DNA from: Syntrophobacteraceae bacterium
GTDB taxonomy: Bacteria > Desulfobacterota > Syntrophobacteria > Syntrophobacterales > Syntrophobacteraceae
Assembly: GCA_003566995.1 (NCBI GenBank)
Contig: PXBG01000044.1
Location: 1-64,000, forward strand
Length of the DNA: 64,000 nt
Direction of reading: 5' to 3'
Shown: in pieces, positions 26,341 to 32,498 of the stretch
Layout of the letters: each line of letters opens with the position of its first letter
Position numbering within the stretch: the stretch's first letter is position 1
Position numbers and translations under genes: made by a program
Notes under the pieces: model-generated
Told to the model about the DNA's origin: nothing
The model's database searches: none
The model's input: the letters and a program-made list of their open reading frames with translations, nothing else

Positions 26341-26376
26341 AACCCCCAAAGAAGGCAATGTCATGTTTTGGGGGTT
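26341..26376. terminator. Inverted repeat between convergent genes
   Basis: AACCCCCAAA at 26341-26350 pairs with TTTGGGGGTT at 26367-26376, a ten-base perfect stem. It lies between the end of mltA and the last codons of the leftward gene and overlaps that gene's stop. The following bases are only partly T-rich on either strand. It may serve both transcripts. Confidence 0.55.
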
Positions 26377-26816
26377 TCCGCTTTTTCGGCCATGGCATTG
26401 AAAAGAATCCTCATTTCATCGAAACAGCGGCAAAGAGCCATGGCTGCATGGCCAAGACTCTCTTGAGACGCCGGCCCATCCTCTGCACAAACCTCACTCA
26501 GAAGAGCCTGCTGCGCGAGACGGAAATTGTTTGTGGTCATTTCACTTCGAATCCTCAGCTGGACGCGCGCCTGCTGGGGATCAAAATCTTTGAGGAATGA
26601 TTCCAGTTCAGTGCTTTTTTGATGATACTCATGAGCAAGCTGGCTTAGCACTTGCAAGTGATCTTTGTGCAATTCTTTCATCACAAAATATGCTCCGGAG
26701 TTAAAGTTTGACGTCAGTATGAGCTCAATTGTTCTTGCCTGGCTCATGAATTCACGAAAAGCGTGGATCCAAACCCTCACCTCGCTCACATGTTCAGGTC
26801 GGACAAAATCCTGCAC
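26361..26816 (-). CDS. Unknown helical protein (151 aa)
   Basis: I do not recognise this protein. It is predicted to be nearly all alpha-helical: long amphipathic stretches such as HLQVLSQLAHEYHQKSTELE and QLRIRSEMTTNNFRLAQQAL, rich in Gln, Glu, Leu and Ala, with no signal peptide or membrane segment. Four Met or Val codons could be the start and none has a strong ribosome-binding site, so the N-terminus is open. It is divergent from the helicase-like gene. A regulatory or adaptor role would be a guess. Confidence 0.5.
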   Translation of the reverse strand: MQDFVRPEHVSEVRVWIHAFREFMSQARTIELILTSNFNSGAYFVMKELHKDHLQVLSQLAHEYHQKSTELESFLKDFDPQQARVQLRIRSEMTTNNFRLAQQALLSEVCAEDGPASQESLGHAAMALCRCFDEMRILFNAMAEKAETPKT

Positions 26817-27201: not shown

Positions 27202-28635
27202 ATGTTCGTCAAACTTCTAAACATCGTGCTTGCCGAAAGCATCAAAATTCCGACGGAGGGCCTATCACCTCTCCTCGAGAAAAAAATCCATGAGCGTCTC
27301 GTTTTCACCAATCCTGACTACGAAGCGCGTCACAACAGAGGGGATTGGATTGGCAGCATTCCCCCGCAAATCAACTGCATTCGACAAAGGGGCAGATATT
27401 ATCATCTGCCCAGGGGCTTTTTGGAGCAGTTTCTCGAGTTGTGCAAAAAACACAACCAGCCTTATCGGCTCATAGACAAGCGCACCACCCTGCCAGCCAC
27501 TTACATTGAGTTCCATGGTGAACTCAAGGGCTACCAGCAGGAAGCTGCTGAAAATATCATGGAAAAGGATTTTTGCACCCTTGTGGGAGGGCATAAAAGC
27601 GGAAAGACAGTCATTGCTCTTTACACCATCGCCCAGCGAAAACAGCCGACGCTCATTTTAGTGCCAAGGCTTGACCTGTTTCAGAACTGGCTCACCAAAA
27701 TCGAAGGTTTCCTCCAGATTCCCAGTTCAGAGGTGGGCATTTTCGCCAGTGGAGAGCATCGCATTGGAAACCAGATCACCATCGCCCACACGGGGGAAGC
27801 TTCCAAGTTCTGGCGAAAACTCACGGACCGGTTCGGCTACCTGGTGCTCGATGAATGCCAGCGATGTCCTTCAAAAGTTTTCACCCACCTCATTCCCAAT
27901 TTCAAAACGCCGTACATGCTGGGTCTTTCCAACTCAGCGCAGCGCAAGGACCGTCTTTCCCGTCTCATGTTCTATTATGTGGGAGACCTCATTTACACCA
28001 TCAACGACAAGGATGCCCGCGAGGGAAGAGGCATCATAAGGGCCAACATCATCACACGCCAGACGGATTTTGACTATCCTTACACCTCGAGGGCCGACTA
28101 CACACCCATGCTCACGGCACTGCGCCAGGACGAGGAGAGAGCCACGCTCATCGCGCAAGACATCGGCCAGGAAATCCACGCTGGAACGGGTCCACTGATC
28201 GTGCTTTCCAACACCAATGGAGACCACAAACTGTATGATGAACTCAAAAAACGTGGCATTGCCACCACCAGGGTGGGTCAGGAAACAGCGCAAGCTCCCT
28301 TGTACCCGACACAGGACGACGAAGACAAATCCGGGTGCCATCGTCCCCTGGATTTGGACACCCCCATGGCCATTTTCACCACGGCGGAAGAATTGATCAC
28401 CCATGCCCATATGCTCACAGCCAGCGTGCTGGTGCTGGCCGAACCCGTTTATTTCAAGCAAAAACTGGCTCAGGCAATCCACGCTTTGCACAGGAACGGA
28501 AACGGTGAAAGCTCCCGGCTGAAAATTTACGACTATGTGGACAGCCGCGTTGGCCTTTTGGAGAATTACTTTAAAATGCGAAGCTACAATTACGGAGTTC
28601 ACCCTGACCTGCTGCTCAACTCCAGCAAAAATTAG
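27202..28635 (+). CDS. Degenerate superfamily 2 helicase-like protein
   Basis: This 477-residue protein has the layout of XPB/UvsW-like SF2 helicases that I recall from deltaproteobacteria: an N-terminal specific domain (FVKLLNIVLAESIKIPTEGL), then two RecA-like lobes. Motif I is kept (GGHKSGKTVIAL). Motif II reads LDECQ instead of DECH or DEAH. Motif III reads GLSNSAQRKD where SATPxR is expected. The motif V/VI region reads KQKLAQAIHALHRNG in place of a QxxGRxxR arginine-finger motif. Hence the fold seems preserved while ATP hydrolysis coupling is probably lost. The reading frame is intact, so this is not simple decay. An ATP-grasp-like gene follows 129 bases downstream. The ATG at 27202 has an AGGAAGG site. 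Confidence 0.75.
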   Translation: MFVKLLNIVLAESIKIPTEGLSPLLEKKIHERLVFTNPDYEARHNRGDWIGSIPPQINCIRQRGRYYHLPRGFLEQFLELCKKHNQPYRLIDKRTTLPATYIEFHGELKGYQQEAAENIMEKDFCTLVGGHKSGKTVIALYTIAQRKQPTLILVPRLDLFQNWLTKIEGFLQIPSSEVGIFASGEHRIGNQITIAHTGEASKFWRKLTDRFGYLVLDECQRCPSKVFTHLIPNFKTPYMLGLSNSAQRKDRLSRLMFYYVGDLIYTINDKDAREGRGIIRANIITRQTDFDYPYTSRADYTPMLTALRQDEERATLIAQDIGQEIHAGTGPLIVLSNTNGDHKLYDELKKRGIATTRVGQETAQAPLYPTQDDEDKSGCHRPLDLDTPMAIFTTAEELITHAHMLTASVLVLAEPVYFKQKLAQAIHALHRNGNGESSRLKIYDYVDSRVGLLENYFKMRSYNYGVHPDLLLNSSKN

Positions 28636-29747: not shown

Positions 29748-32498
29748 ATGAATTCACTGAAAAAGTATATTTTTCAAAGCTTTTTTCTTCTTCTGATGAC
29801 CTTGTTTTCGTTCCCTGCCTGGAGTGCCGGTCTTCACTCTCAGGTCCCCACCCTGTCCTCTGAGGCGGCCAGGCATGTGCACCGCATCATGGCTTCCGAG
29901 CCAAGCGACCTTTTCGTCACCCTCAACAATGGCCTCACCCTGCTCGTTCATCCCATGCCAGGCAGCCAGGTGGTTTCCACGCAGGTCTTTGTGCGTGCAG
30001 GTTCCATTCATGAAGGGCAACACCTGGGAGCCGGCCTGTCCCACTACCTTGAACACGTGGTTTCCGGGGGGACGACCACATCATTCACGGAAGATGAAGC
30101 CACAGAAACCCTGGAACGCATCGGCGGACAAACCAACGCATACACCTCCTATGACCGGACGGTGTATTACATCAACACTGCATCTCAGCACTGGAAGGAT
30201 GCTCTGGGGCTTTTGCTGGCTTATGTTTCTGATTCGACCCTGGAGCCAGCTGAAATACTCAGAGAAAGATCCGTTATTCAGCAGGAAATGAAAATGGGAG
30301 AGAACTCTCCCTCCAGAGAACTGTGGAAGCTCTTTGCCAAGACAGCCTACCGGGAACACCCCGTCAGAAAGCCCATCATTGGTTACGAGGAGATTTTTGT
30401 AAAAAAAGAACGAGATGCGCTGTTCCAATACTACCAAGAGCGTTATCGACCGGACAATATGGTGGTGGTGGTCGCCGGAGCGGTGAATCCCGAAGAGGTG
30501 GTGAAATTCGCGGGCCAAAAGACCAGCCATTTCCAGAGGCAAGCCGCGCCCCCCATGGCGCTTCCTTCGGAACCGCCTCAGTTGAGCACACGATGGCAGG
30601 AGAGAGAACTTCCTTTTGCGCGGCTGACTCAAGCGATGGTTGGCTTTCCCTCAGTGGCCCTGCACCACCCGGACCTTTATGCCCTGGACGTGGTTGCTCT
30701 CCTTCTGGGCCAGGGCCGGAGCAGCAGACTTTACAGCCGATTGAAAGATGAAGAAAACCGTGTTTTGAGCGTGAGCGCATCCAACTGGACGCCCTCTTAC
30801 ACGGAAGGCCAGTTTCTCATATCCCTCTCCCTTGCCCCCCGCCATTGGCCGGCGGTTCTCGAATCCATCGGAGACGAAATTGAGCAGCTCAAAAGAGAGC
30901 TCGTTTCCCAAGAGGAGCTGGAAAAGGCGAAAAAACAGGCCAAGGCAAGACACGTTTTTGGCCAGGAAACCGCTTCCAACCGCGCATCTTCCCTCGCTTC
31001 ATCCTTCCATGACACGGGAACCCCCTATTTCGACATCCTTTACCTGGAAAATATCAGCAGGGTCACAGCAGAACAAGTGAGGGATGCGTCCAGAACCTAC
31101 CTGAACATGGACCGTATGAATGTGGCGGTGGTCCACCCATCGGCGAAAAGCGATGAAGTGGAAGGGGCTTCCCCGGAGCATGGGGCTGAGATCCCGGAGC
31201 CAACGGAACCGACTTTGAAGGAAATGCCCAATGGGCTGAAAGTGCTTTTCAAGGAGGATCCGTCCCTTCCCATGGTCACTCTGCAGCTTTACGGGCTTGG
31301 AGGCCTTTACATGGAACATGAGAAGCCTCCCGGAATTGCTGCATTCACCGGTTCACTGCTCACAGCGGGGACTGAAAACCGGACCAAGATGGACATCGCC
31401 CGCTCCATCGAAGAAATTGGGGGCCGCATTGTGAGCCGTTCTGACAACAACACTTACCGTGTTTCCGTAAAGGTGCTCAAAGAAGACCTTGAACTGGCCC
31501 TCGACGTTCTTGCAGATGTGGTGCGAAACCCCACCTTTCCCCAGGAAGAGATTGACAAGCTGAGGGAGGAAACCCTCCTGGCCCTTGAAACTCTGGACGC
31601 CAATTGGCAGGTGGAAGTCTTGAGGCTTTTCAGAAAAAACTTTTTTGACCAGTCACCTTACCAAAACCACAGACTGGGAACCCCCCGATCCATCAAATCC
31701 ATCACCCGGGATGAAGTCGTCGATTTCTACCAGCTCATGGTTAACCCAAAGCGCTCCGTACTCGCGGTTTACGGAGATCTGGATGGGGAGAAAACACGAA
31801 GGCTCATCGAGGACAAGTTTTCACACTGGGAAGGTCATGACCTGCCACTGCCTTCCTATCCCAGGGAAACAAGGAACATTCTGGAAAACCAGGTGATAGA
31901 AACACACAATGACAAATCGGCAGCGGCCCTTTTCATCGGCACCAACGGGTTGAACGTTCGCCACGAATCGCAGCCTGTGCTGGACGTTCTGAATACGGTT
32001 CTATCGGGAACGGGCTACCCGGGCGGTCGTCTATTCAGGGGATTGCGGGGTGGAGAGGAAGATTTGGTCTATGTGGTGGGTGCATTTCCATTTTATGGAA
32101 AAGACGCGGGCTTTTACGGAGTCCTGACCCAGACAACCCTGGGCAACCTTGATCGCGTCCAGAAAATCATCCTCGAAAACCTGGAAAAACTGGGAGAAGA
32201 ACTCATATCGGAGGAGGAACTGGAGAAAACCCAAAACCTCCTCATCGCCAGAAGGCACCTGAATCTGGAAAGCCTGGATGCGAGGGCTCAAAGTGCGGCC
32301 GTGAACGAAGTTCTGGGCCTGGGGTGGGAGCATGACATGCGATATCCCCAAATGGTTCGCCGCGTGACAGCGGAGCAGATTCGAGATCTGGCCAAAGAGC
32401 TTTTCGAACACACTTTGGTGGTGCGAACCATACCGGAAAATCCCGTTGAAGTCCTGGAGATTCTGCCTCCCATGGACGACATTCACACGCCGGGATGA
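29748..32498 (+). CDS. M16-family zinc metallopeptidase, two-domain, secreted
   Basis: This is an exported insulinase/pitrilysin-type peptidase of 916 residues. A signal peptide ends near AWSA (about residue 27), so it acts in the periplasm or outside. The first M16 domain has the inverted zinc motif HYLEH (residues 99-103) and GGQTNAYTSYDRTVYY. The third ligand is expected in the helix around ERSVIQQEM. The second half repeats the domain without the zinc motif (GIAAFTGSLLTAGTENRT), the usual inactive clamp half. The length fits fused two-domain M16B pairs. It probably degrades peptides released in the envelope. It is monocistronic with its own promoter. Confidence 0.92.
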   Translation: MNSLKKYIFQSFFLLLMTLFSFPAWSAGLHSQVPTLSSEAARHVHRIMASEPSDLFVTLNNGLTLLVHPMPGSQVVSTQVFVRAGSIHEGQHLGAGLSHYLEHVVSGGTTTSFTEDEATETLERIGGQTNAYTSYDRTVYYINTASQHWKDALGLLLAYVSDSTLEPAEILRERSVIQQEMKMGENSPSRELWKLFAKTAYREHPVRKPIIGYEEIFVKKERDALFQYYQERYRPDNMVVVVAGAVNPEEVVKFAGQKTSHFQRQAAPPMALPSEPPQLSTRWQERELPFARLTQAMVGFPSVALHHPDLYALDVVALLLGQGRSSRLYSRLKDEENRVLSVSASNWTPSYTEGQFLISLSLAPRHWPAVLESIGDEIEQLKRELVSQEELEKAKKQAKARHVFGQETASNRASSLASSFHDTGTPYFDILYLENISRVTAEQVRDASRTYLNMDRMNVAVVHPSAKSDEVEGASPEHGAEIPEPTEPTLKEMPNGLKVLFKEDPSLPMVTLQLYGLGGLYMEHEKPPGIAAFTGSLLTAGTENRTKMDIARSIEEIGGRIVSRSDNNTYRVSVKVLKEDLELALDVLADVVRNPTFPQEEIDKLREETLLALETLDANWQVEVLRLFRKNFFDQSPYQNHRLGTPRSIKSITRDEVVDFYQLMVNPKRSVLAVYGDLDGEKTRRLIEDKFSHWEGHDLPLPSYPRETRNILENQVIETHNDKSAAALFIGTNGLNVRHESQPVLDVLNTVLSGTGYPGGRLFRGLRGGEEDLVYVVGAFPFYGKDAGFYGVLTQTTLGNLDRVQKIILENLEKLGEELISEEELEKTQNLLIARRHLNLESLDARAQSAAVNEVLGLGWEHDMRYPQMVRRVTAEQIRDLAKELFEHTLVVRTIPENPVEVLEILPPMDDIHTPG

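Follow-up and report, generated by a model that had tools for sequence, protein, structure and literature searches.

An SF2 helicase-fold family without the motifs of a motor, and its degenerate ATP-grasp neighbour, in Syntrophobacteraceae and allied bacteria

A 477-codon gene in the window (the whole stretch of 64,000 nucleotides analysed here, from a Syntrophobacteraceae bacterium) encodes a protein with the predicted fold of an XPB/UvsW-like SF2 helicase that lacks motifs III, V and VI, and the same losses are seen throughout a family that is under strong purifying selection across a class of sulfate-reducing and syntrophic bacteria (Syntrophobacteraceae and allies). Recognised pseudo-helicases are very few, and this family is large, mostly single-copy and holds graded stages of loss; with the degenerate ATP-grasp encoded just downstream, it would make a pair of ‘dead’ enzymes kept by natural selection in one bacterial class. 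Both proteins have intact sisters, which for the ATP-grasp are encoded in the very same genomes, and this makes the role of a helicase fold without its motor directly testable. Genes of this kind are easily mistaken for active helicases.

The frame is open from an ATG, as the first-pass annotation had it, with an in-frame GTG 9 nt further upstream; ORF boundaries here rest on mechanical gene calls. Pfam matches of the 477-aa protein are confined to helicase lobe 1 (ResIII, E=1e-12; DEAD, E=1e-7), and Helicase_C is not among them. The two-lobe XPB/UvsW layout proposed earlier is nevertheless borne out by an AF2 model built on 34 orthologues (pLDDT 85, pTM 0.78), which has an N-terminal domain followed by two RecA-like lobes. 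Its PDB matches include XPB II (5tnu_A, Z 22.9) and T4 UvsW (1rif_A, Z 22.7), the latter covering model residues 4-266, that is the N-terminal domain and lobe 1, with an rmsd of 3.4 over 245 residues in VIA-align; where whole chains are matched the rmsd is high, most likely because the two lobes are oriented differently in the model. By sequence, archaeal XPB II and Rad25 are the nearest proteins of solved structure. Though XPB II/Rad25 (PDB 5tnu, 6p4f, 2fwr) and UvsW (1rif, 2oca) share the two-lobe fold and N-terminal domain with our model, they are ATP-dependent motors with full motifs. Orthology to XPB was considered and rejected, as the NCBIfam model for the DNA repair helicase XPB (NF045503) gives 37.8 bits against a curated cut-off of 610 bits.

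Table 1. Features of the pseudo-helicase locus in window coordinates.
Feature	Position	Strand	Evidence
Predicted small helical-bundle protein, divergent; conserved core about 26361-26681	26361..26816	-	co-conservation, model
Pseudo-helicase (SF2, XPB/UvsW fold), 477 aa	27202..28635	+	ORF, Pfam, AF2 model, PDB matches, class orthologues
Basic domain at the N-terminus (aa 1-104), like that of UvsW	27202..27513	+	1rif_A alignment, entropy, pI
Walker A GGHKSGKT, aa 129-136, K132 fixed	27586..27609	+	alignment
Motif II DECQ, aa 217-220	27850..27861	+	alignment
Degenerate motif III SNS, aa 243-245; S/T-A-T in intact relatives	27928..27936	+	alignment
Lost motif V position, aa 392-404	28375..28413	+	alignment, entropy
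Lost motif VI / arginine finger position, aa 420-431	28459..28494	+	alignment, entropy
Family-specific C-terminal signature KIYDYVDxxxGLLENYF(R/K)MRSYNYG, about aa 441-466	28525..28599	+	entropy, invariant residues
Degenerate RimK-like ATP-grasp (pseudo-ATP-grasp), 262 aa	28765..29553	+	homology to intact copies, lost active-site residues
Tandem M16 peptidase	29748..32498	+	Pfam M16; cluster C7 in 8/27 loci

We compared the motifs of 42 orthologues with those of 15 intact relatives. The latter carry APTGSGKT, DECH, SATP, ATGQLIGEGFD and QYLGRVLRP, and the pseudo-helicases carry GGxKSGKT and D-E/D-C/S/A-Q/N/H, with SAT, V and VI missing in every one. The retention of GKT, the replacement of SAT by SNS and the absence of motif VI, all read earlier from the window protein, are present there as described. 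At motif III, the Ala at position 244 is found in 15/15 intact sequences and 0/42 pseudo-helicases, and in the window protein AQAIHALHRNG occupies the place of QYLGRVLR, a position anchored by the (I/V)YDYVD just after it that both groups share. Between these sets, which are unlike in size and divergence, mean entropy is similar overall (1.44 bits for pseudo-helicases, 1.33 for intact relatives) but rises steeply at motif V (2.43 vs 0.38 bits) and motif VI (2.11 vs 0.39 bits). An SF2 motor requires both of these motifs to couple ATP to movement, and since both are gone, loss of translocation is the safest conclusion to draw.

Motif II carries less of the argument. DECQ had been taken as a sign of lost catalysis and is indeed what the window protein has, but position 218 is Glu in 33 of the 42 orthologues and Asp in the other nine (position 220 being Q, H, N or G), so DECQ alone is weak evidence and the weight is carried by III, V and VI. 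A clade sharing DECQ/SNS, proposed as the test of the idea, proved too narrow a description: motif II is still DECH in f5, the deepest family, mostly DECQ/DESQ in f1 and f2, DDAN/DDAH in f3 and DDCN in f6, whereas V and VI are missing throughout. The stages of loss are that the common ancestor already lacked V and VI and that motif II eroded afterwards. With the catalytic Glu kept in most members, a weak ATPase is possible.

Other parts of the protein have been held fixed. Q112 of the Q-motif, G134, K135 and D217 are found in 42/42 pseudo-helicases, as are G129 and K132, where 15/15 intact relatives have A129 and G132; the Walker A Thr is missing in two of the 42. These residues give no support to a loss of ATP binding. 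The clade's most eroded nucleotide site is that of the f6 sequences (L055, L056), with GGPKTGKK (T136K) at Walker A and DDCN at motif II, and because of this GKK, Mg-ATP binding would not be universal in the family. Two regions are tighter than in the enzymes: the N-terminal part (aa 28-73; 0.83 vs 1.71 bits), within a domain whose pI is about 9.0-10.9 in all members, and the C-terminal tail, ENYFRMRSYNYG (0.57 vs 1.39 bits), where D444, Y445, V446, D447, N455, F457, R460, Y462, Y464 and G465 of the signature are invariant.

The explanation that we favour, and consider somewhat probable, is that of a domesticated, non-motor, non-hydrolysing protein, probably ATP-binding and associated with DNA, which would serve as a scaffold or switch together with partners. 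An ancestor of the class would have taken an XPB/UvsW-type helicase from a phage or other mobile element, and this helicase would then have stopped being a motor. Lobe 1 most likely still holds nucleotide, as argued by the retained Q-motif Gln, Walker A and motif II Asp, and lobe 2, with V and VI gone, could neither sense nor fire it, so that translocation and unwinding would be lost. The N-terminal domain, being basic and highly conserved, most likely anchors the protein to double-stranded or branched DNA; DNA binding may itself have been lost, given the erosion of motifs IV and V, through which DNA is contacted. The conserved tail and the gene neighbourhood together argue that this tail would dock the helical-bundle protein encoded divergently and, in most species, the pseudo-ATP-grasp.

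A rather unlikely alternative is a purely structural pseudo-enzyme, a protein–protein scaffold that would engage neither nucleotide nor DNA and would keep Walker A only for folding. It would fit the T136K change in f6, the erosion of the DNA contacts of motifs IV and V and the ranking of the family-specific tail among the most conserved parts. However, the four lobe 1 residues Q112, G134, K135 and D217 persist among sequences down to 36% identity, motif I is as well conserved as in the active relatives (0.30 vs 0.26 bits), and the N-terminal domain is strongly basic throughout.

Two neighbouring genes are candidates for the partners. The small divergent gene is present in 49/56 class genomes, is restricted to the class among 297 phylum genomes searched, and lies divergently adjacent to the pseudo-helicase in 44/44 genomes where both are on the same contig, with the matched stretches 138-713 bp apart. 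Its dN/dS is 0.11-0.28 in the same close pairs used for the pseudo-helicase below, its model (pLDDT 83) consists of helices only, and its product has an invariant Arg (R99, window numbering) and an invariant FDE. No known fold could be assigned, since the best Foldseek match (E=0.06) was to a chemoreceptor coil, as expected of helical-bundle noise, and weak Pfam matches to Mod_r (4/23, best 5e-4) were judged to be coiled-coil noise. A search for promoter motifs between the divergent genes gave ATTGCAAA as the best 8-mer, in 7/23 loci where shuffling reached at most 5, a count too weak for the claim of a shared motif.

The pairing with the next gene, also proposed in the first-pass annotation, is real but not absolute. 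The product of this gene is homologous along its length to intact RimK-like ATP-grasps (Pfam PF08443) of the same genomes, of which the copy in the window genome (L116:6334-7113(-), G000:C60) matches Pfam RimK at 7.6e-19. Only 4/18 members of the downstream gene match RimK themselves (best 6e-11), the deepest family (f5) among them, and the window copy gave no match in the same search. At sixteen active-site positions checked against eight intact copies, the ATP-binding Lys, the Gly loop, DRDLR, the YWR Arg, the Asn and EAN are constant in 8/8; nearly all are lost in the f1 and f3 module copies, with f5 intermediate. Where the L116 protein keeps K, GSSxGxG, DRDLR, YWR, NV and EAN, the module copy has lost them, so that the downstream gene belongs with the RimK-like ATP-grasps by homology and domain but not as an enzyme, and is a degenerate paralogue of the intact protein and a second pseudo-enzyme. 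Its dN/dS is 0.18-0.23 (same close pairs). The ATP-grasp has eroded alongside the pseudo-helicase, with erosion least in f5 for both proteins. The intact ATP-grasp (about 260 aa) is near-universal in the class; a RecN-like neighbour was set aside as a hint to its function, since it occurs in the window's own genome and L119 but not in all families.

Several species of one genus (G006, G017, G018, G020) carry the pseudo-helicase and give no match to the pseudo-ATP-grasp, which is apparently dispensable for keeping the pseudo-helicase, and the small gene is the steadier partner. Its own linkage has exceptions: in f6 it lies on a different contig from the pseudo-helicase, and one genome (G029) has the pseudo-helicase without it. 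In f6, too, the degenerate ATP-grasp is unlinked from the pseudo-helicase, yet has the same M16 peptidase directly 3', and the three genes do not occur together there. With one genome lacking the small partner and several species lacking the pseudo-ATP-grasp, a fixed three-part complex is not required. We therefore offer only tentatively, as a doubtful possibility, a class-wide complex of two pseudo-enzymes with unrelated folds, a domesticated phage helicase and a degenerate ATP-grasp, and a new helical partner, in which unhydrolysed ATP would set the DNA-bound state and K132, the fixed Lys of Walker A, would help to lock the nucleotide.

The small protein also raises the idea that the pseudo-helicase is still an ATPase, in which Walker A and the motif II Glu would be completed by an arginine supplied in trans as part of a regulated two-component system. 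The Glu kept in 33/42 would suit this, as would the invariant Arg (R99) and FDE of a partner that is almost always co-encoded. We think it unlikely, given that Asp replaces the catalytic Glu in 9/42, the Walker A Thr is lost in 2/42, and one genome has the pseudo-helicase without the small partner.

The nearest full-length homologues of the family are stand-alone intact helicases of the phylum (L077-L091, L057) and TOTE AEP-helicases (L059-L063), all with intact motifs (GSGKT, DECH, SATP, GEGFD, QYLGRVLR/QYAGRLHR). The closest are free-standing proteins of 460-480 aa; several adjoin phage integrase or terminase genes, including cases of the L077 type, and intact versions also occur on viral contigs. 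Because of this association, the simplest reading is that the pseudo-helicase would be a domesticated mobile-element helicase. Of the longer homologues, L059:2238-4868 is a TOTE-type AEP-helicase (PF22548) and L060-L063 are related long helicases with intact motifs, these proteins being spread over several genomes of the bacterial family and some of them extended C-terminally; another relative, L058:3957-5141, has GSGKT, DECH and SATP in a frame that stops short of motif VI and is possibly truncated.

TOTE AEP-helicases (L059), which are remoter homologues encoded in these genomes, and a weak PADLOC match (PbeA, E=6e-8) could instead suggest that the gene belongs to a system of defence or conflict and not to housekeeping. 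This is distinctly unlikely, as the gene is mostly single-copy and near-universal in the class with a vertical pattern by family, and its neighbourhood is stable in several families, with metK, ahcY and mltA, unlike that of patchy defence islands. PADLOC gave weak matches only, and the AEP primase domain (PF22548) that marks TOTE proteins was found neither in the 477-aa protein nor in those encoded next to it.

Matches to the pseudo-helicase, mostly at 38-64% identity, are given by 50/60 relatives, Desulfoferrobacter suflitae (L033) being among those in the Syntrophobacteraceae. It passes a strict cut in 46/56 class genomes and in 32/35 of good quality; absences from draft genomes are weak evidence, and at least three are assembly effects (in G001 the divergent partner lies at a contig end, in G023 the contig stops within the gene, and in G046 a stretch is masked). 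Across 395 phylum genomes, full-length scores are about 700 bits or higher within the class and no higher than 394 elsewhere. In a tree built with a short search, the pseudo-helicases are monophyletic (SH-aLRT 99), apart from both the stand-alone and the TOTE helicases, and f5 is the deepest branch. Between close pairs dN/dS is 0.06-0.13, compared with 0.04-0.06 for metK and 0.08-0.13 for mltA (NG86 estimates, crude where dS is near 1 or above). The check on selection proposed earlier thus came out as purifying, and the conserved pseudo-helicase family then suspected is clade-wide: an intact sister group, lost catalytic motifs and a maintained gene make it a pseudohelicase in the evolutionary sense. 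The search for a lone copy that had decayed recently while its relatives stayed intact found none, motif loss being class-wide, and recent decay or annotation error is ruled out by the orthologues across the class together with the dN/dS values.

Relaxed selection or ongoing pseudogenisation with a residual open frame, to which the free drift of motifs V and VI and a slightly faster window lineage (distance ratio 1.18 vs 0.96-1.13 in flanking housekeeping genes) might point, is very improbable. Purifying selection and conservation throughout the class refute it, alongside stop-free full-length orthologues (the one internal stop is in a contig-end fragment, G040:C56) and about 60 invariant columns among 34 sequences.

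Pseudo-helicases are already known as a kind, to which this family adds a variant. PriA of Deinococcus radiodurans, an SF2 helicase whose catalytic motifs are likewise lost clade-wide, is reported to lack ATPase and unwinding but to keep DNA binding and a partner contact (PMC4504706), a precedent for a helicase doing so without catalysis. That protein has changes in Walker A and B and is still recognisable as PriA (PMC4504706), whereas the present family retains Walker A, has lost the motifs of the C-lobe and would descend from an XPB/UvsW-type helicase of a mobile element. A similar example is Utp25 of the SSU processome, an essential factor with a helicase fold and vestigial motifs, counted as the second proposed pseudohelicase (PMC9539457); it is a eukaryotic DEAD-box-like ribosome factor that lost the DEAD motif, while the present family is bacterial and lost III, V and VI. 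Within openly available papers, a search for paired helicase and ATP-grasp pseudo-enzymes found none, and an earlier description of the family is possible. As for the tandem M16 peptidase beyond the pseudo-ATP-grasp, it probably lies outside the mechanism of the pseudo-helicase and forms part of its context only.
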